From the NCBI GenBank assembly GCA_902790175.1, contig CADAQZ010000058.1, positions 1 through 33,194 on the forward strand: a stretch of DNA of 33,194 bases, written 5' to 3'. This stretch comes from an uncultured Eubacteriales bacterium (GTDB lineage: Bacteria > Bacillota > Clostridia > Christensenellales > Aristaeellaceae). Shown here one piece after another: positions 8,117 through 25,383 of this stretch. Under the pieces are notes generated by a model. The model was given only the letters and a program-made list of their open reading frames with translations. It had not been told where the DNA came from and did not search any database. Each line of letters starts with the position of its first letter. The first letter of the stretch is position 1. The position numbers and the translations under genes are program-made.

Positions 8117-9340
8117 TCTTCTATCAGCGCCTCTGCGCAGCGCATGCCGTCCACGGCGGCGGACATGATGCCCCCGGCGTAGCCCGCACCCTCGCCGCAG
8201 GGGTAGAGCCCCGCGAGGTTGGACTGGCAGCCGCCGTCACGCTCGATGCGCACCGGTGAGGACGAGCGTGTCTCCACCCCGGTCAGCACGGCGTCGGGGT
8301 CGGCAAAGCCCTTCAGCTTCCGATCCAGCAGCGGCAGCGCTTCCCGCATGCTGTCAGTGACGAACCCCGGCAGGCACCCGTCGAGGCTGCCCCACTTCAC
8401 GCCGGGCCGATAGCTGGGCGTCACCGAGCCTGGGCCCTCGCTGGGCCGCCGTTTCCGCCCGCCAGCGGGTCGTCGCCGCCGAAGTCCTCCGGCAGCACGT
8501 TCACCAGCAGCGCGCTGTTCGCGTTCTCGCCGTCGCGGGCGTAGAGGCTCATGCCGTTGACCACCACCCCGCCCGCCTCGCTGGCGGCGGCGACCACCTG
8601 CCCGCCGGGGCACATGCAGAACGTGTACACGGACCGGCCCGATGGCAGGTGCACGGCCAGCTTGTAGTCGGCGGCCCCCAGCGCGGGATGGCCCGTCGCC
8701 GCTCCGTACTGCGCGCGGTTGACGGCGGCCTGCCTGTGCTCGATGCGCGCGCCGATGGCGAAGGGCTTGCGCGACATGCTCGCGCCCGCTTGATGCAGCA
8801 TCTCAAACGTGTCGCGTGCGCTATGGCCCACGGCGAGGATCACGCCCGCGGTGTCCAGCGCATACGCGCCGTCCGGGCCCTCCAGGCGCGCGGCGGTGAC
8901 GCGGCCATCCTCGACCATCAGGTCGGTGAGGCGCGTCATAAAGCGCACGTCACCGCCCAGCGCGATGATCTGCCCGCGCAGGTTCTTCACCATGGCCTTG
9001 AGGTGGTCGGTGCCCACGTGGGGCTTGGCCTGCCAGAGGATGCTCTCCGGCGCGCCCGCGCGGTGCATCTCCTCCAGCACGGCCCGGCAGCGCGCGTCCT
9101 TGATGCCGCTGTTCAGCTTGCCGTCGGAGAAGGTGCCTGCGCCGCCCTCGCCGAACTGCACGTTGCTCTCGGGATCAAAGGGGCCGCCGCGCCAGAACTC
9201 GGCCACGTCCTTCTCTCGCTCCTCGACGGGCTTGCCGCGCTCGACAACGACGGGCCGAAGCCCCGCCCGCGCAAGCGTCAGCGCCGCGAACAGCCCCGCG
9301 GGCCCCATACCCACAACCAGGCAGCGCCTGGAGGCATTTG

Positions 9341-9562
9341 CTGCCGCGCACACTTGCGACGATTCTTCGCGCCACTGATTCCAGCGCGAAGAATCTTCCT
9401 GTACTGCGTCCCCGCGGGCAGTCGCTGCCGCGCACGCTTGCGACGATTCTTCGCGCCACTGATTCCAGCGCGAAGAATCTTCCTGTACTGCGTCCCCGCG
9501 GGCAGTTGCTGCCGCCTTTCTGGCATCGGTTTCCCGCGCCACTGATTCCAGCGCGGGAAACC
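9341..9562 (+). repeat. 84-bp tandem repeat with constant-loop, variable-stem hairpins
   Basis: Units start at 9341, 9425 and 9509, exactly 84 bp (28 codons) apart. Each has a hairpin with the loop CACTGATTCCA. Copies 1 and 2 have the stem GATTCTTCGCGC/GCGCGAAGAATC (9361-9395 and 9445-9479). Copy 3 has GGTTTCCCGCGC/GCGCGGGAAACC (9528-9562). The four differing bases in each arm are all compensated in the other arm. Confidence 0.85.
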
Positions 9563-9607
9563 TGCCGTCACAGGCATTTTCAACCGAAGTTCTGTCAGCC
9601 GGGCGAT

Positions 9608-13561: not shown

Positions 13562-13668
13562 CGACCTCATCCGACCTCGCTTCGCTCGGCCACCTTCCCC
13601 AAAGGGGAAGGCTTTTGGTGCGGCACTCTCCAACTCCTCACTCCTAACTCCTCACTCCTAACTCCTTC
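13562..13668. repeat. Two adjacent intergenic repeats at the helD 3' end
   Basis: The first part (13562-13612) has CCTCGCTTCGCTCGG and the hairpin CCTTCCCC-AAA-GGGGAAGG. The second part (13629-13668) is a tandem of CAACTCCT/CACTCCTAACTCCT words. The second part encodes the last residues (ELGVRS) and the stop codon of helD on the minus strand. Confidence 0.7.
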
Positions 13669-15785
13669 ACGAGCTTTCCCCCGCCGAGGAGGGCGGCGGC
13701 GTGGAGGGCGCGGGAGGCGGCGGTGTAGAGGCGGCGGCGCTCGCCGTCGGTGAGGGGCACGTCGGGCCAGACGACGATCACGGCGTCGAACTCCATGCCC
13801 TTGGTCAGGTGGTAGCAGGCCACCACGTTGTCCCCGGCCTCGTAGTTGAGGTCGGCCTCGCCGCCGTCCAGCCGGTAGACGTTCTCCAGCTTCGTGGAGA
13901 GCGAGTCCGCCTGGGCCTGGCTGCGGGTGATCACGGCGATGGACTTGTGCCCCGCGGCGCGGAACCTCTCCAGCGTCTGCTTCAACAGCGCCTCGGAGTA
14001 CTGCGCCACCAGCGGCGCCTCGCCCTCGCGGCCGAACGGCTCCAGCTGCTCGCCGTCCGGCAGGATGCGGTTGCACAGCTGGGCGATGGGCACCGTGGAG
14101 CGATAGCACCGGCTCAGCGGCATCAGCGGGGCCCCGGGCATGCCGAAGCACGCGCCCCAGCGCGAGGGATCGCAGGCCTCCATGCCGGGGGTCGTGCGCT
14201 GCTTGGGGTCGCCCAGCAGCGTGACCTGCGCGTTGGGATAGTAGACTCCGAGCATCGCCAGCGACACGTCGGCGTAGTCCTGCGCCTCGTCCACCAGCAG
14301 GTGGTAGATCAGCTTGTCCGGCGCGGCGAAGCCCAGCCGCACCATCAGATACGCCTCGGCCACGGCGTCCTCCCACCAGGTGATCCCGGCGGCCTGGTTC
14401 TCGGCGTAGGCGTCCTTGAGGGCCTTCGGCGCGGTGCGCAGCGCACGCACCAGCAGCTGACTGCCCTTGAGTTCCAGCATTTGCCGCAGCTGGGCGCGCA
14501 CCGGCTGCAGGCGCTGGGCCACGGCCATGTTGCTCATCTGCCGCAGCTCGCGCTGGCTGTACTTGCCGGAAAAGCTCTTTTCATACTGCTTGTACAGGCG
14601 CTCCTCCCAGCCGGACAGCCGCGTCTGCAGCGTGGCGGCCATGCGCATCAGCTTCTGCGCGGGCGTGAGCAGCGAGAGCTCGCCCCGGTACATGCGCACC
14701 AGCTCGTCCCGGCGAATGAGCACCTGGTTGTCCAGCCGCACGTCGCGGAAGCTGGGCCCGTAGGCGGCGAAGTCGTCCGCAAAGCGCTTCAGCTGGCCGA
14801 GGAACTGCGCCCCGCCCTTGTAGAGCACGGACTGGCGGCGCAGGCCGGTCTCGTCGTCCAGCAGCGCCTCCAGCTGGCGGTAGGGCTTCTCGACCTTCTT
14901 GCCGAGCACGTCCTCCACCACCTCGCGCATCGTGCGCGCGCGGATGTTCTCCTCGCCCAGCTCCGGCAGCACGCCGGACACGTACTCGGAAAAGGCGGTG
15001 CTGGGCGAGAGGATCACGATCTTGCTGGCGTCCAGCACGTCTCGGCGGCGGTACATCAGATAGGCCGCGCGGTGCATGGCCACGCTGGTCTTGCCGGAGC
15101 CCGCGCCGCCCACGACGGACAGCACCCGCGCGTCCTCGCGGCGGATGGCCGCGTTCTGCTCGGATTGGATCGTGGCCACGATCTGCCGCATGTGGCGGCT
15201 GGTGGCCCCGGAGAGGATGTCCAGCAGCATCGAGTCGTCGATGTTCAGCTGGGTGTCCACGTAGTAGCGCAGCCGCCCGTTCTCCATGCGATACTGGCGC
15301 TTCAGCGTCAGCTGGCCCCAGATCTCGCCGGACGGGCTCTCGTAGCGGGCCTCGCCGGGCGTGGCGTCGTAGTACAGACTGCAGACCGGCGCGCGCCAGT
15401 CGTGCACCAGCAATTCGCCCTTCTCGTCCTTTAAGCTATACAGGCCGATGACGATCTTCTCCAGCTTGTCCTCGCCGCGCTCGGCGAAGTCCACGCGGGC
15501 GAAAAACGGGTTCATCAGCATCCGGCGCGAGCGCTGGGCCAGGCTGTCGGCGAATTGGCGGCGCGCCACGAAGCGGTCCACCTCCGCCGAGAGCTGCTCC
15601 AAATCCTCCTCGGAGAGGGCCGTGGGCTTCACGCGCAGGTCCTCCCAGGCGTCAGCCACGATGGCCTGTATCGACTGCAGGTGGTCGTTGGAGATGACCT
15701 GGGCGCGCTCGATCAGCGCCAGCAGCAGCTGCTGCACCCGCACGGTATAGGCCTGCTCCTCGCGCAGTTCCTTCAACTGTTCCAT
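13644..15785 (-). CDS. helD: HelD-like RNA polymerase-recycling ATPase (UvrD/Rep-type superfamily 1)
   Basis: A product of 713 residues from ATG 15785, which has GGAGG at about 15795-15799; an in-frame upstream start (15854) lacks one. The N-terminal ~190 residues are the charged helical and 'FFARVDF..' region typical of HelD, including 'YSLKDEKGELLVHDWRAPVC'. Walker A is 'VVGGAGSGKTSVAMHRAAYL' (about residue 225). The Walker B/helicase motif II is 'LLVDEAQDYADVSLAML', followed by 'LLGDPKQRTTPGME' and the C-terminal 'NVVACYHLTKGMEFDAVIVV'. In Gram-positives HelD binds stalled core RNA polymerase and strips nucleic acid and sigma using ATP. The final KELGVRS and stop lie in an intergenic repeat. 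It diverges from yitT. Confidence 0.88.
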   Translation of the reverse strand: MEQLKELREEQAYTVRVQQLLLALIERAQVISNDHLQSIQAIVADAWEDLRVKPTALSEEDLEQLSAEVDRFVARRQFADSLAQRSRRMLMNPFFARVDFAERGEDKLEKIVIGLYSLKDEKGELLVHDWRAPVCSLYYDATPGEARYESPSGEIWGQLTLKRQYRMENGRLRYYVDTQLNIDDSMLLDILSGATSRHMRQIVATIQSEQNAAIRREDARVLSVVGGAGSGKTSVAMHRAAYLMYRRRDVLDASKIVILSPSTAFSEYVSGVLPELGEENIRARTMREVVEDVLGKKVEKPYRQLEALLDDETGLRRQSVLYKGGAQFLGQLKRFADDFAAYGPSFRDVRLDNQVLIRRDELVRMYRGELSLLTPAQKLMRMAATLQTRLSGWEERLYKQYEKSFSGKYSQRELRQMSNMAVAQRLQPVRAQLRQMLELKGSQLLVRALRTAPKALKDAYAENQAAGITWWEDAVAEAYLMVRLGFAAPDKLIYHLLVDEAQDYADVSLAMLGVYYPNAQVTLLGDPKQRTTPGMEACDPSRWGACFGMPGAPLMPLSRCYRSTVPIAQLCNRILPDGEQLEPFGREGEAPLVAQYSEALLKQTLERFRAAGHKSIAVITRSQAQADSLSTKLENVYRLDGGEADLNYEAGDNVVACYHLTKGMEFDAVIVVWPDVPLTDGERRRLYTAASRALHAAALLGGGKLVKELGVRS

Positions 15786-16822: not shown

Positions 16823-16893
16823 GTGTGGAGTGTGGAGTTGAGATAGCCGCGCGGCAGCAGCTATTAACTCCTCACTCCTAACTCCTAACTTAA
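16823..16893. repeat. Inverted repeat of GGAGTGTGGAGTT / AACTCCTCACTCC type
   Basis: The left arm GAGTGTGGAGTGTGGAGTT is followed by a GC hairpin (GCCGCGCGGC) and the right arm AACTCCTCACTCCTAACTCC. It belongs to the same loose family as the repeat at 13629-13668. Confidence 0.6.
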
Positions 16894-16919: not shown

Positions 16920-17888
16920 ATGCTCGCAGGTTTGCCTGAGGTCGCCGTCATCGGCGCGGCCATCGCCGACATCCCGCTGGCCCCGGTGGGCCCGGAGGTG
17001 TTCGCGGCGCACTCCACGCCGCTGGCGCGGATCGCCATGACCCCCGGCGGCGACGCGCTGAACGAGGCGCTGGCGTTGGCGCGGCTGGGCAGCAGACCGG
17101 CGCTGGTCAGCGTCGTGGGCGCGGACGCCGCCGGAAACTTTGTGCTGCGCGCGCTCGCGGACGCGGGCGTGGACGCCTCGTGCGTGCGGCGCGTCCCGGG
17201 CCTCGACACCGGCATCAACGTCGTGCTCGTCGGCGCGGATGGCGAGCGCCGGTTCATCACCAGCCGCAGCGGCAGTCTGCGCAGGCTGTCCCTTGCCGAC
17301 ATCCTGCCCGCGCTGGGCAGCCCGGCGCTCGCGGACATAAAGATCGCGTGCCTGGCGAGCCTGTTCGTGTCGCCGCTTCTGACCCTCGACGACACCGCGG
17401 CGCTGTTCGACGCGCTGAAGGCGCGGGGACTGACGCTGTGCGCCGACACAACGCGCCCGAAAAACAGCGAGAAGCTTCGTGAGGCGGGCGAAGCGCTGTC
17501 GCGGCTGGACTACTTCTTCCCGAACCGGGACGAGGCCGCGCTGCTGACCGGCGAAAGCGACCCCGACCGCGCCGCCGACGCGCTGCTGGGCGCGGGCGTC
17601 GGGCACGTCGCGATCAAGCTGGGCGGCGCGGGCTGCCTGCTCAAATCCCACAGTGAGCGCCATCTCGTGCCCGCGTTCCCCGGCGCAAACTGCGTGGACA
17701 CCACCGGCGCGGGCGACACGTTCGCCGCCGGGTTCATCGCCGCGCTCGTCGAGGGCCGGTCCTTCCTCGACTGCGGCCGCTTCGCCAACGCCGCCGCGTC
17801 GCTGTGCGTGGAGTACGTCGGCGCGTCGGGGGGATGGACAAGGGATGAGGCGGAGGAGAGGTTTGAGGGAGTAGGCAGTAGGGAGTAG
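16920..17888 (+). CDS. PfkB-family carbohydrate (ribokinase-like) kinase
   Basis: Of 322 residues in all, the N-terminal part has the sugar-binding 'MTPGGDALNEALALARLG' and 'VGADAAGNFVLRALADAGVD'. The C-terminal anion-hole/catalytic signature is 'DTTGAGDTFAAGFIAAL' (about residues 260-276), with Asp as the expected base. The N-terminal 'VIGAAIADIP' strand is also typical. It should phosphorylate a sugar or nucleoside hydroxyl with ATP in the cytosol; the substrate cannot be read. The start ATG 16920 has AAGGAGG at 16907-16913. The last residues (GVGSRE) and stop come from a GGGAGTAGG repeat that begins inside the gene. Confidence 0.9.
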   Translation: MLAGLPEVAVIGAAIADIPLAPVGPEVFAAHSTPLARIAMTPGGDALNEALALARLGSRPALVSVVGADAAGNFVLRALADAGVDASCVRRVPGLDTGINVVLVGADGERRFITSRSGSLRRLSLADILPALGSPALADIKIACLASLFVSPLLTLDDTAALFDALKARGLTLCADTTRPKNSEKLREAGEALSRLDYFFPNRDEAALLTGESDPDRAADALLGAGVGHVAIKLGGAGCLLKSHSERHLVPAFPGANCVDTTGAGDTFAAGFIAALVEGRSFLDCGRFANAAASLCVEYVGASGGWTRDEAEERFEGVGSRE

Positions 17889-18109
17889 GGAGTAGGAATA
17901 GTGAAGATCCTTCGCTTCGCTCAGGATAACAACGACGGCAATCCGCCAATCTGTCATCCTGAGCGGAGCGAAGGATCTTTTAGTCTCGTTATGGGCGGGC
18001 GGCGCATCGCCGCCCCTACACTATTCCTATCCCCTATTGCCTATTCACTTTTCCTACTCCCTACTGCCTACTCCCTACTGCCTACTCCCTACTGCCTACT
18101 CCCTACTCC

Positions 18110-18112
<3 letters not shown>
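17866..18112. repeat. Composite nested palindromic element between the PfkB kinase and gyrA
   Basis: Outer arms (17886-17903 TAGGGAGTAGGAATAGTG; 18019-18036 its near reverse complement) enclose a family A inverted pair (17904-17979) and a GGGCGGCGCATCGCCGCCC hairpin (17998-18016). Beyond the right arm are eight 7-mers, CCTACTC/CCTACTG, in the order C,G,C,G,C,G,C,C (18053-18108). It supplies both the PfkB stop and the gyrA stop (TAG, 18110-18112). Confidence 0.8.
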
Positions 18113-20535
<2,423 letters not shown>

Positions 20536-20573: not shown

Positions 20574-21066
20574 GGAGGGATTAGGGACTAGGGATTAGGG
20601 ATTAGAAATAGTGGGCAGAGCCACCGCATTCCCCCGTCATTCATCCGAAATCATCATTCGCCCAGTTTTGCTATGAGTACGTTCAGCATGCGTCCAATTA
20701 CCTCGCTGAGGTTCATAGCGTGTGTGATCTGTTCTTGTGTCAGATAACACAGTTCGACGCAAATCAGTAATTGGGTTTCAAGCTCATACTTCGAGCCTCG
20801 GGCCATGGACAGGAACCGGGCATAATCCTTGCTGGACGCGCGGCCGTTGCCTTCTGCGATGTTGGATGGAATGGACACAACAGCCCTGCGGATTTGATTG
20901 GATAGTGCATAGATCTCTTCTTTTGGCAGAAAGCGCATCAGCTTATAGGTTTCCTTGAGCAACTCTATAGAACGCTTCCAAACTACAAGGTCCCGGTAGT
21001 TCTTCGCAAAACCATCTGCCATATGGATACCTTCTCACTATTCCTAATCCCTATTCCCTAATCCTT
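20574..21066. mobile_element. Putative small element: S23-type gene between inverted repeats
   Basis: The left end (20577-20612) reads GGATTAGGGACTAGGGATTA, then GGGATTAGAAATAGTG. The right end (21037-21065) is its near reverse complement, CACTATTCCTAATCCC and TATTCCCTAATCC. Both copies end inward with ATAGTG/CACTAT, as in the element at 17866-18112. The element lies between gyrB and gyrA, which are normally close neighbours. No transposase is present, so mobility is inferred. Confidence 0.5.
20654..21022 (-). CDS. Four-helix-bundle protein (23S rRNA intervening-sequence/S23 family)
   Basis: The 122-residue product begins 'FAKNYRDLVVWKRSIELLKE' and continues with 'IRRAVVSIPSNIAEGNGRAS' and 'YARFLSMARGSKYELETQLL', the signatures of the 23S rRNA intervening-sequence (IVP/S23) family. 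The fold is a four-helix bundle related to Avd of diversity-generating retroelements. The biochemical role is unknown. No reverse transcriptase or variable repeat is near, so this is not a diversity-generating system. The start 21022 has AGAAGG about 7 nt upstream, part of it in the flanking repeat. G+C content is clearly lower than in gyrA and gyrB on either side, which suggests an acquired gene. Confidence 0.88.
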   Translation of the reverse strand: MADGFAKNYRDLVVWKRSIELLKETYKLMRFLPKEEIYALSNQIRRAVVSIPSNIAEGNGRASSKDYARFLSMARGSKYELETQLLICVELCYLTQEQITHAMNLSEVIGRMLNVLIAKLGE

Positions 21067-21072
21067 CTCCCG

Positions 21073-23019
<1,947 letters not shown>

Positions 23020-23666: not shown

Positions 23667-23992
23667 TCAGCCTTCGTTCATTTTCTTTTTCACCGTCTTA
23701 CAGGAAGCAATCAGCATCACACGGATAGACGTGCACTTTTCATTCAGAGATCGGAATAATGTATCGTCTATATAGTTTGTGCGGTGAAGCAATTCCATCC
23801 AATAGCCGGTTTCGCTGGCTTCTTTCAGGGCGATCTCGAGCTTTGAGACAAAATCCTTTTTACCCTGTGCGTAATTGGCTTCATGAATATTCGCGCCGAT
23901 GGAAGTGCCAGAGCGTCCAATCTGGTTGGAGATCACGGTTTCATGCTTGGCTTTGAGGTCCTTTACAAGACCGCGAGCTGGTTTTCTTTCAT
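23667..23992 (-). pseudogene. Second four-helix-bundle (S23-family) gene with a short N-terminal deletion
   Basis: ATG 23992 with GGAGGAG upstream reads M-K-E-N-Q-L-A and then goes out of frame. The other frame carries 'LVKDLKAKHETVISNQIGRS', 'GTSIGANIHEANYAQGKKDF' and 'VSKLEIALKEASETGYWMEL', the strongly conserved core of this S23 subfamily, to the stop at 23667. Comparison with remembered homologues suggests loss of about 34-37 bp (a dozen residues of helix 1). It differs from the copy at 20654 and is the IVP type with the RSGTSIGAN motif. A strong promoter precedes it. Function is unknown. It could be intact in reality if the gap is an assembly error. Confidence 0.8.
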
Positions 23993-24043: not shown

Positions 24044-24194
24044 TGATGTCGGCGCTGTGCGCCTGATGATGCTTCGTCGCTCGCGCTCCGAAATGATGTT
24101 GCTCCCGATGGTCGCAATGATGCTGCTCGCTGTGCTCGCAATGATGCCGCTCCCGATGGTCGCAATGATGCCGCTCGCTGTGCTCACAATGATG
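24043..24194. repeat. ATGATG-spaced repeat array, left half
   Basis: ATGATG recurs at 24043, 24066, 24093, 24117, 24141, 24165 and 24189. From 24093 the spacing is exactly 24 bp. Two inner words alternate (GCTCCCGATGGTCGCA and GCTCGCTGTGCTCGCA), making a 48-bp higher-order unit repeated twice (24093-24140, 24141-24188). Confidence 0.85.
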
Positions 24195-24200
24195 CGATGT

Positions 24201-24392
24201 TTGCCCTTGTCATGTCCCGCAGGACACATCATTGCCGTAGGCAGCATCATGCGCGAAGCGCACATCATTTGCCCGCCAGGGCAAACATCATTTAAAAGAT
24301 TGCCCTTGTCATGTCCCGCAGGACACATCATTGCCGTAGGCAACATCATGCGCGAAGCGCACATCATTTGCCCGCCAGGGCAAACATCATTC
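24201..24392. repeat. 99-bp tandem repeat of CATCAT-spaced short hairpins, right half
   Basis: Two copies (24201 and 24300) are nearly identical. Each is a string of small hairpins: TGTCC-cgca-GGACA, TGCC-gta-GGCA, TGCGC-gaa-GCGCA and TTTGCCC-gcca-GGGCAAA, all joined by CATCAT. The joining word is the reverse complement of that in the left half, so the array is arranged head-on around about 24195. No protein is likely here. Confidence 0.85.
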
Positions 24393-24430
24393 AAAAAGCG
24401 CCTTTTGTCATTGGACAAAAGGCGCTTTTT
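24393..24430 (-). terminator. Terminator of tRNA-Arg
   Basis: Perfect 17-bp stem (24393-24409 with 24414-24430) with a 4-base loop. On the minus strand it ends in TTTTT directly after the tRNA gene. Confidence 0.9.
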
Positions 24431-24432
24431 GC

Positions 24433-24509
24433 TGGCGCACCCAAAGGGATTCGAACCCCTGACCTGCCGCTTAGGAGGCGGCCGCTCTATCCTGCTGAGC
24501 TATGGGTGC
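24433..24509 (-). tRNA. tRNA-Arg (anticodon CCT)
   Basis: The minus strand folds into a complete cloverleaf: acceptor GCACCCA/TGGGTGC, D-stem GCTC/GAGC, anticodon stem GCCGC/GCGGC with loop CTCCTAA (anticodon CCT), T-arm with TTCGAAT, discriminator G and an encoded CCA. It reads AGG codons. Confidence 0.96.
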
Positions 24510-25180: not shown

Positions 25181-25217
25181 AAAAAGCGCACAATCGATAT
25201 GTCCTTTTAAACAAAAT

Positions 25218-25292
25218 GTACAGATCCTTCGCTCCGCTCAGGATGACAAGTTTGCGTCGCCTGTCATCCTGAGCGAAGCGAAGGATCTGTAC
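25218..25292. repeat. Family A inverted repeat between convergent vanZ and rubrerythrin genes
   Basis: Arms of 31 bp (25218-25248 and 25262-25292) differ at one position and carry CAGATCCTTCGCTCCGCTCA / TGAGCGAAGCGAAGGATCTG. Such a long stem between converging genes could end transcription from both sides. Confidence 0.85.
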
Positions 25293-25350
25293 GTTTCGCC
25301 TGGGAACAGGTGCGGTCAGAGCGCCGCGGCTTCATCGCCTCGCAGCATCT

Positions 25351-25383
25351 CCTAATCCCTAATCCCTATTCCCTAATCCCTCT
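25351..25383. repeat. CTAATCCCTAATCCCTATTC repeat at the rubrerythrin 3' end
   Basis: A tandem of CCTAATC/CCTATTC words, the same family as the arms at 20577 and 21037. Only one copy is seen here, with no inward partner. Confidence 0.65.

Follow-up and report, generated by a model that had tools for sequence, protein, structure and literature searches.

Inverted heptamer arrays around an S23 gene in the gyrB-gyrA spacer: a probable insertion element of the 23S intervening-sequence kind

The spacer between gyrB and gyrA of an uncultured Eubacteriales bacterium contains a unit of about 490 bases, in which a small gene of the S23 family is framed by short tandem repeats in inverted orientation. 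This unit probably belongs to the small insertion elements that have been known mainly as intervening sequences (IVSs) in 23S rRNA. It lies between two cistrons of an operon, with its S23 gene in the sense direction and inverted arrays of heptamers as its arms. On the best reading of the data, there would be a widespread insertion element, located mostly between operon genes, of which the 23S IVSs are one instance.

S23 genes of many phyla are framed in the same way, the arms match copy by copy, and corresponding sites in relatives are unfilled or differently filled. What is new is that the ends vary from copy to copy yet are matched within each copy.

The element between gyrB and gyrA

The window is the whole stretch of DNA that was analysed, 33,194 nucleotides long. 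The assembly that holds it, G000, comprises 2.43 Mb and is 87.8% complete. The features of the window discussed here are the following.

20,577-21,065, minus strand: S23 element in the gyrB-gyrA spacer, made of inverted heptamer arms and an S23 gene (from sequence; occupancy varies in relatives)
20,577-20,605, plus strand: gyrA-side arm, (GGGATTA)4 with one variant unit; the transcript reads (TAATCCC)n (repeat scan, flank match)
20,604-20,612, plus strand: inner end, AGAAATAGTG region (GAAATAGTG class), pairs with CACTATTCC (from sequence)
20,654-21,022, minus strand: S23 gene, 122 aa, PF05635 / TIGR02436 (open reading frame and profile searches)
21,037-21,065, minus strand: gyrB-side arm, minus-strand (GGGATTA)n with inner end GGAATAGTG (repeat scan, flank match)
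21,073-23,007, minus strand: gyrB, host gene upstream; stop codon about 7 bases from the arm (from sequence)
18,110-20,535, minus strand: gyrA, host gene downstream; frame interrupted in the assembly (from sequence)
17,867-18,110, no strand: S23-less unit with arrays at 17,867-17,896 (plus) and 18,053-18,110 (minus) and non-coding palindromes within (RNA fold z -12.5)
25,351-25,380, minus strand: array of the same heptamer class (window scan, flank match)

The left end of the unit consists of GGGATTAGGGACTAGGGATTAGGGATTAG followed by AAATAGTG, and the right end of CACTATTCC followed by TAATCCCTATTCCCTAATCC. Both are tandem heptamers, arranged in inverted orientation as (GGGANTA)n...(TANTCCC)n around the S23 gene. 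The first-pass annotation had described 20,577-20,612 and 21,037-21,065 as near reverse complements with the inward termini ATAGTG and CACTAT. This description is confirmed: the ungapped match between the two 100-nt flanks scores 21.5, and none of 1000 dinucleotide-preserving shuffles reached that value (maximum 15). The same annotation had taken the ends for one fixed pair of terminal repeats. This idea was discarded, since the ends are arrays of heptamers and S23 copies mostly have a repeat word of their own.

The enclosed gene had been correctly placed in the S23 family. It matches PF05635 with 127.7 bits (cut-off 33.8) and TIGR02436 with 122.6 bits (cut-off 24). Its G+C content of 48.8% is, as had been noted, lower than that of gyrA (64.8%) and gyrB (65.8%). 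When the transcript of the unit is folded, the arms are paired in the predicted structure (-168.2 kcal/mol, z -3.46).

Two further observations concern the neighbourhood of the unit. The gyrA gene is interrupted at 19,825-19,828 into pieces of 236 aa and 572 aa, which may reflect an assembly error or be real; several relatives have a single frame of >800 codons. A second S23-family gene lies at 23,667-23,969 on the minus strand, upstream of gyrB. Its profile match starts at position 19, stops occur a short way upstream, and its arms are unmatched (score 8.0). It is possibly a decayed copy. These two S23 genes are the ones located in G000, as assembled to 87.8%.

Matched arms around S23 genes in many bacteria

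S23 loci from the genus of G000 were compared with several other sets. The named set comes from a scan with the S23 alignment, using one genome per species and including MAG bins; it is biased to the SIPSNIAE type of S23 and holds the best 80 of 587 confirmed stretches. Going by the titles of the sequence records, these best 80 of 587 cover about 18 phylum-level groups, including two archaeal bins. The plasmid set has nine loci, seven of them cyanobacterial, from 29 records with a match. S23 occurs in 35 of 79 Xanthomonadaceae genomes, from which 29 loci were used. The multi-copy set contains further S23 copies from genomes with several.

With thresholds and flank definitions chosen in this analysis, matched inverted arms were found at 143 of 180 distinct S23 genes; the same procedure applied to neighbouring genes gave 16 of 248. 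The 180 remain from 183 after three were dropped for short flanks, and some of the neighbour flanks contain an arm of an S23 unit. At the threshold used, 37 of the 180 have no matched arms, and the second S23 gene of the window is among these.

The counts for the single sets, which overlap, were made with flanks taken from the conserved S23 core. Matched arms are present at 26 of 29 genus loci (shifted control 0/59), at 9 of 9 plasmid loci (0/18), at 57 of 79 named loci from the best 80 of 587 (5/290), at 25 of 29 Xanthomonadaceae loci (1/56) and at 35 of 48 loci of the multi-copy set (0/56). The Xanthomonadaceae figure depends on the flanks: those drawn from extended start codons miss arms that reach into the reading frame (12/30), and the core-based flanks that give 25/29 were adopted afterwards. 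A second type of S23 (genus alignment A2) also has arms in most genus loci, except L002 and L051.

The arms tend to be built from repeats of seven bases. Tandem arrays of period 7 stand on both flanks at 24 of 29 genus loci, compared with 0 of 109 control pairs, and at 18 of 79 named loci (best 80 of 587), compared with 1 of 434. Of the periods tested, 4 to 15, background is exceeded only by 7, its double 14 and, weakly, 8. In Xanthomonadaceae, several S23 genes have GGGATTC/GGGAATC arms, and one such unit lies between two genes that we take to be accB and accC.

For the most part, an arm matches only the other arm of its own copy. When the two arms come from different loci, matches number 2 of 158 pairings in the named set (best 80 of 587), 2 of 96 in the multi-copy set and 2 of 18 among plasmids. 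The rate is higher in the genus (10 of 58) and in Xanthomonadaceae (12 of 58). Since cross-locus arms match among these close relatives, words are shared within young groups.

The strongest contrast is found inside single genomes. Seven multi-copy genomes were compared using 38 of their 80 S23 matches. A copy's own arms match in 28 of 38 cases, whereas pairing the upstream arm from one copy with the downstream arm from a different copy gives a match in only 3 of 210 cases. An example is Confluentibacter flavum, with 10 of 10 for own arms and 0 of 90 across copies. Two of the genomes have lower own-arm counts, 3/8 and 1/4. Such copy-specific ends do not behave like the ends of a transposon family, and this is the most unusual result here. 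Chance overlap of microsatellites with S23 genes was rejected on the basis of these cross-copy controls.

Unfilled plasmid sites and orientation

Plasmids allow filled and unfilled versions of a site to be compared. At a TraM junction, an S23 unit is present in Nostoc C052 and in N. edaphicum. Two C057 plasmids have the junction without the unit, with flanks 94% identical. Strain ATCC 53789 has a filling without an annotated gene, with the similar ends GGGAACAGG and CTGTTCCC. In a third C057 plasmid the junction is occupied by another filling without a gene, which has different 7-base repeats.

A second example is an integrase junction. It is filled in two Calothrix plasmids and unfilled in Tolypothrix, Nostoc carneum and Aulosira plasmids, where three bases separate stop from start. 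At a cas6-cas4 junction, the unit is present in Anabaena sp. 90; Dolichospermum UHCC 0315A, with flanks 98.7% identical, has an unrelated spacer there. A fourth filled site (L096) returned no related record.

The target-site duplication proposed earlier as a check was not recognised at the three plasmid junctions with unfilled relatives, where the flanking bases have diverged. Judged from these sequence comparisons, the unit seems to have moved in the past.

Separately, S23 units between cas6 and cas4 of CRISPR operons were seen on two plasmids, from Pseudanabaena (L092) and Anabaena (L094). The Anabaena operon is of type I-D, going by its cas1d annotation.

The units have a preferred orientation. 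It was counted where both called neighbours lie within 300 bp, with an unbenchmarked caller of reading frames that scores amino-acid make-up; two such neighbours are lacking at 33 of the 80 named loci and at 9 of the 29 in the genus. All three genes share a strand at 39 of 47 named loci (best 80 of 587) and at 19 of 20 genus loci. S23 is antisense between two same-strand genes at 1 of 47 named loci (best 80 of 587) and at none of 20 in the genus. Seven plasmid copies are annotated; five are sense and two (L095 and L096) are antisense to both neighbours. Because the arms are symmetric, the bias must stem from the expression of S23 or from the manner of insertion.

Arrays and units without S23

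The heptamer arrays of G000 are far more numerous than its S23 genes. The pattern GGGANTAGGGANTAG occurs 212 times (90 + 122), compared with 42 (24 + 18) for the reversed pattern, where overlapping matches within one array are counted separately. These arrays are frequently single and at times stand in inverted pairs. An array together with its inner end, GGGANTAGGAATAG, occurs 35 times, compared with 0. Thirty of these 35 loci were fetched and 28 placed, and at 11 of the 28 an inverted array lies no more than 110 nt away, so that they form miniature units. Most miniature units have a core like GGAATAGTGGCTGCCGCG...GGCATTTCC; several other loci run into palindromic repeats.

One unit without S23 lies in the window itself. 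The composite at 17,867-18,110 has GGGAGTA arrays with the inner ends GGAATAGTG and CACTATTCC, and its cargo consists of non-coding palindromes. Because the same kind of end frames this second cargo, the claim of one end type with different contents holds.

Arrays do not require a resident S23 gene, since G017 and G012 have no S23 and yet many arrays, and since S23 and array counts are only weakly correlated across the genus (rho 0.32, p 0.09).

Several other repeats were observed in the window. Arrays of another heptamer class (ACTCCTA/ACTCCTC) lie at 13,631-13,677 and 16,858-16,890, close to gene ends. A block at 24,089-24,398 has 24-base repeats and then two 99-base repeats (96% identical) rich in short palindromes, and adjoins a tRNA-Arg gene at 24,433-24,509. 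Direct repeats of 84 bases (96% identical) at 9,333-9,566 contain inverted CGCGAAGAATC-type motifs. Palindromes of the form ATCCTTCGCT...AGCGAAGGAT (TGTCATCCTGAGCG type) are found at 17,905-17,978 and 25,214-25,296, and a similar one follows an array at at least one other locus of the genome (L194).

Small units of this sort suggest a first alternative, a DNA unit of the MITE type that a host transposase moves in trans by recognising the inner end GGAATAG. Inverted paired ends, different cargo between similar ends, and several S23-less units of G000 with a similar core (an inverted array accompanies 11 of 28 located inner ends) would all agree with it. The S23 copies of one genome, however, mostly do not share their ends. 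A target duplication, moreover, was not recognised at the three plasmid junctions, whose flanks have diverged, and symmetric ends predict both orientations, whereas 39 of 47 named loci (best 80 of 587) are sense with their operon. Such a MITE is an unlikely explanation.

Turnover at the gyrB-gyrA site

Twenty of the 28 genus genomes examined contain S23. The gyrB-gyrA junction could be read at 21 of 23 loci tried. Nine junctions hold an S23 unit, with four different repeat words: GGGATTA in G000, G010 and G021, GGGAGTA in G016, G018 and G024, GGGAACA in G006 and G014, and GGGAAAA in G027. One (G005) holds a shortened unit that retains both arms, four hold a different insert, and seven have no gene insert.

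Among the seven without a gene insert, the distance from the gyrB stop to about codon 6 of gyrA is 33-54 bases in G003, G017 and G022, and 96-239 bases in G023, G020, G015 and G026. The different inserts of G001, G009 and G025 (L081, L064, L082) carry a gene of DUF559 type, assigned by Pfam for G009 and G025 and by likeness for G001. That of G011 (L089) is 966 bases long and has similar outer palindromes; its reading covers the outer parts. As an observation of its own, the DUF559 (nuclease-like) inserts of G001, G009 and G025, perhaps with that of G011, lie near CTCCCTC...GAGGGAG palindromes at this same intercistronic site. They may be another small element dwelling in operons.

The ends occur in inverted pairs, with varied cargo, and some gyrB-gyrA sites have no unit, so neither of the two outcomes that would have contradicted the earlier proposal was found, a gene fixed at this place in all relatives or repeat ends scattered as random single copies.

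The occupant of the site can differ even between close relatives. Over 540 bases of gyrA, G000 and G016 show 97.0% identity, but their S23 genes are 65.3% identical and their words differ (the rows of G008, out of register, were left out of this comparison). The occupant has therefore been replaced or newly acquired.

The word follows the S23 lineage within the genus. Where the arms read GGGAGTA, the S23 genes of the gyr site and those of a second site (L041, L042, L052) have 70-75% identity among themselves; between gyr-site genes whose words differ, identity is 49-65%. Across the genus, S23 identity correlates with word similarity (rho 0.56, Mantel p 0.001, n=26), and the 28 pairs more than 70% identical in S23 share a mean of 6.96 of 7 word letters. 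Only a faint correlation is left across phyla (rho 0.10, p 0.05, n=37).

In the S23 tree, the second-site genes (support 97/92) fall inside the GGGAGTA group (78/77), beside a gyr-site gene (91/89); the support of the GGGAGTA group is thus modest. Word requires five changes on this tree and site three. Because both are the least possible number, the tree alone does not weigh word against site. Taken together, the sequences suggest that the arms and S23 travel together.

A second alternative is the exchange of cassettes by homologous recombination, in which pre-existing intergenic arrays serve as landing pads for S23 cassettes. This model needs neither a transposase nor a target duplication, and it suits a single site with different cargo and a similar kind of end, as well as an S23 lineage that tracks the word within the genus. 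Four words at the single gyrB-gyrA site speak against it, as does the finding that no 7-base array was flagged at the printed unfilled gyrB-gyrA junctions. It also leaves the sense bias unexplained. Cassette exchange is thus improbable, to about the same degree as a MITE.

The S23 gene and its protein

The S23 gene appears to be under purifying selection. The ratio dN/dS is 0.03-0.10 in 10 of 11 pairs, with one pair saturated, and dS exceeds 1.3 in most pairs. Because of these values and of the sense orientation, S23 seems to be the gene that defines the unit and is selected in it; units lacking it look like derivatives or relatives. The first-pass annotation had pictured a small non-autonomous unit that can carry S23. 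The inverted pairs with varied cargo agree with this picture; S23, for its part, does not look like a passenger.

Relatives of S23 have solved structures (2GSC, 2RLD). The protein is also distantly similar to Avd, the accessory protein of diversity-generating retroelements: the bAvd profile gives 28 bits, under its cut-off of 40, and DivGenRetAVD gives 28.4 bits, under its cut-off of 80. Likeness of PF05635 to Avd has been published (PMC10053308).

Three other roles or origins were considered and rejected. A tblastn search with the S23 of the window in 50,697 phage records (E 1e-4) returned no homologue, which speaks against a phage origin. PADLOC gave no match for two S23 proteins, which speaks against membership in a defence system. 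The third was a requirement for a resident reverse transcriptase. RVT_1 was absent from the search of G000 (87.8% complete) and from 20 of 28 genus genomes; six of the eight genomes with one are among the 20 S23 carriers. S23 presence thus does not require a resident reverse transcriptase, and an RNA route through such an enzyme is unsupported.

Signs of purifying selection and sense orientation could be expected of a resident, immobile regulatory module, made of a stem-loop and a small RNA-binding protein of the operon. Such a module, however, would not be expected to show patchy presence, unfilled sites and occurrence in 23S rRNA, nor to differ in S23 lineage, at a single site, between genomes that share 97% of the gyrA stretch. 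This makes it a poor candidate, with a low probability.

Comparison with known systems

The closest known system is the IVS of 23S rRNA. According to PMC4990558, the Coxiella IVS is an insert of about 430 nt with a sense S23-family reading frame and terminal inverted repeats that form a stem of 28 bp. Two or three tandem GACAGAT heptamers, depending on the strain, stand at its 5' end before the S23 reading frame, and RNase III cuts at the first repeat; the IVS is excised from the transcript without ligation. That source cites IVSs in Leptospira, Brucella and Xanthomonas as well, and describes their function and origin as still unclear 25 years after 1990.

The unit of the window shares the S23-family reading frame (127.7 bits) and the terminal inverted repeats capable of forming a stem (21.5). 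It differs from an IVS in its location, between two protein genes of an operon rather than inside a 23S rRNA helix, and in having arrays on both sides. The layout found here also extends across many phyla, mostly with copy-specific words. One locus links the two directly: the S23 copy of an Azospirillum plasmid (L100) lies within a 23S rRNA gene (Rfam LSU) and has heptamer arms that score 23.5.

Inserts in the 16S and 23S rRNA genes of CPR bacteria likewise bear 23S_rRNA_IVP reading frames of the S23 family (PMC11270868). Unlike the present units, those reported there are rRNA inserts only, and the terms "inverted repeat", "heptamer" and "tandem repeat" are absent from the main text of that paper.

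Heptameric intergenic repeats of the form (GGGANTN)n, with GGGAATC and GGGGA(C/T)T as examples, have been described from Xanthomonas and Nostoc (PMC4692102). Two Xanthomonas genomes have 70 and 75 convergent pairs of them, with the G-rich strand just past stop codons and the C-rich strand just ahead of start codons. The GGGATTA and GGGAGTA arrays are of the same unit kind and are intergenic too. The difference is that arms flank S23 genes here, whereas the searched text of PMC4692102 makes no link to S23, and "four helix bundle" and "23S" are absent from its main text. Within the searched part of the open PMC literature, a tie between S23 and heptamers was found only for Coxiella 23S rRNA.

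That the arrays are independent intergenic microsatellites, for instance G-quadruplex or regulatory repeats, and S23 merely lies in the same spacers would fit their abundance without S23 and the description in PMC4692102, but it is strongly disfavoured and very improbable given own-arm matching of 28/38 against 3/210 across copies of the same genome and matched arms at 143/180 S23 genes against 16/248 neighbours.

Diversity-generating retroelements share with the unit a distant homologue of S23, namely Avd, and differ in that no reverse transcriptase was found in G000. MITEs and REP-type palindromes are short inverted-repeat units without a transposase of their own, which the S23-less units of G000 resemble. 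Those S23-less units do have similar ends in common, unlike most S23 copies of a genome.

A model for the element

In the favoured model, an insertion element of the 23S IVS kind, the arms would pair in the operon transcript to form a long stem that closes off the insert. RNase III may then cut this stem and release the insert, by analogy with the Coxiella IVS. S23 would be made from the host transcript and would presumably serve the upkeep or spread of the element itself. Tandem repeats would allow the stem to form in any register, so that arms could grow or shrink by slippage without loss of pairing. Arms and S23 would be inherited jointly and drift jointly, and for this reason old lineages would end up with unrelated words. 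Units without S23 would be shortened or refilled relatives.

Since S23 is oriented in the sense direction and related to Avd, an RNA route to new sites appears likelier than a DNA route.

A bolder extension is offered tentatively and is rather unlikely to be right as a whole. S23 elements might form a pan-prokaryotic mobile class with sequence-free ends, in which each lineage has its own heptamer and the two arms are kept identical by copying one from the other. With an Avd-like S23 recruiting a polymerase in trans, arms would be extended or copied in a telomerase-like manner, and insertion between cistrons would be linked to RNA. If this were true, many heptameric intergenic repeats of bacteria would be footprints of the class.

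Significance

The favoured reading would join three puzzles: the intervening sequences of 23S rRNA, the "four helix bundle protein" of little-known function, and the intergenic heptamer repeats known from Xanthomonas and cyanobacteria. The usual notion of a transposon end does not accommodate ends that vary between copies and match within each copy. For annotators, matched arms around S23 genes give a means of spotting such inserts in operons. Whether IVSs move, and what S23 does, become questions that can be tested in laboratory cyanobacteria or Bacteroidota.
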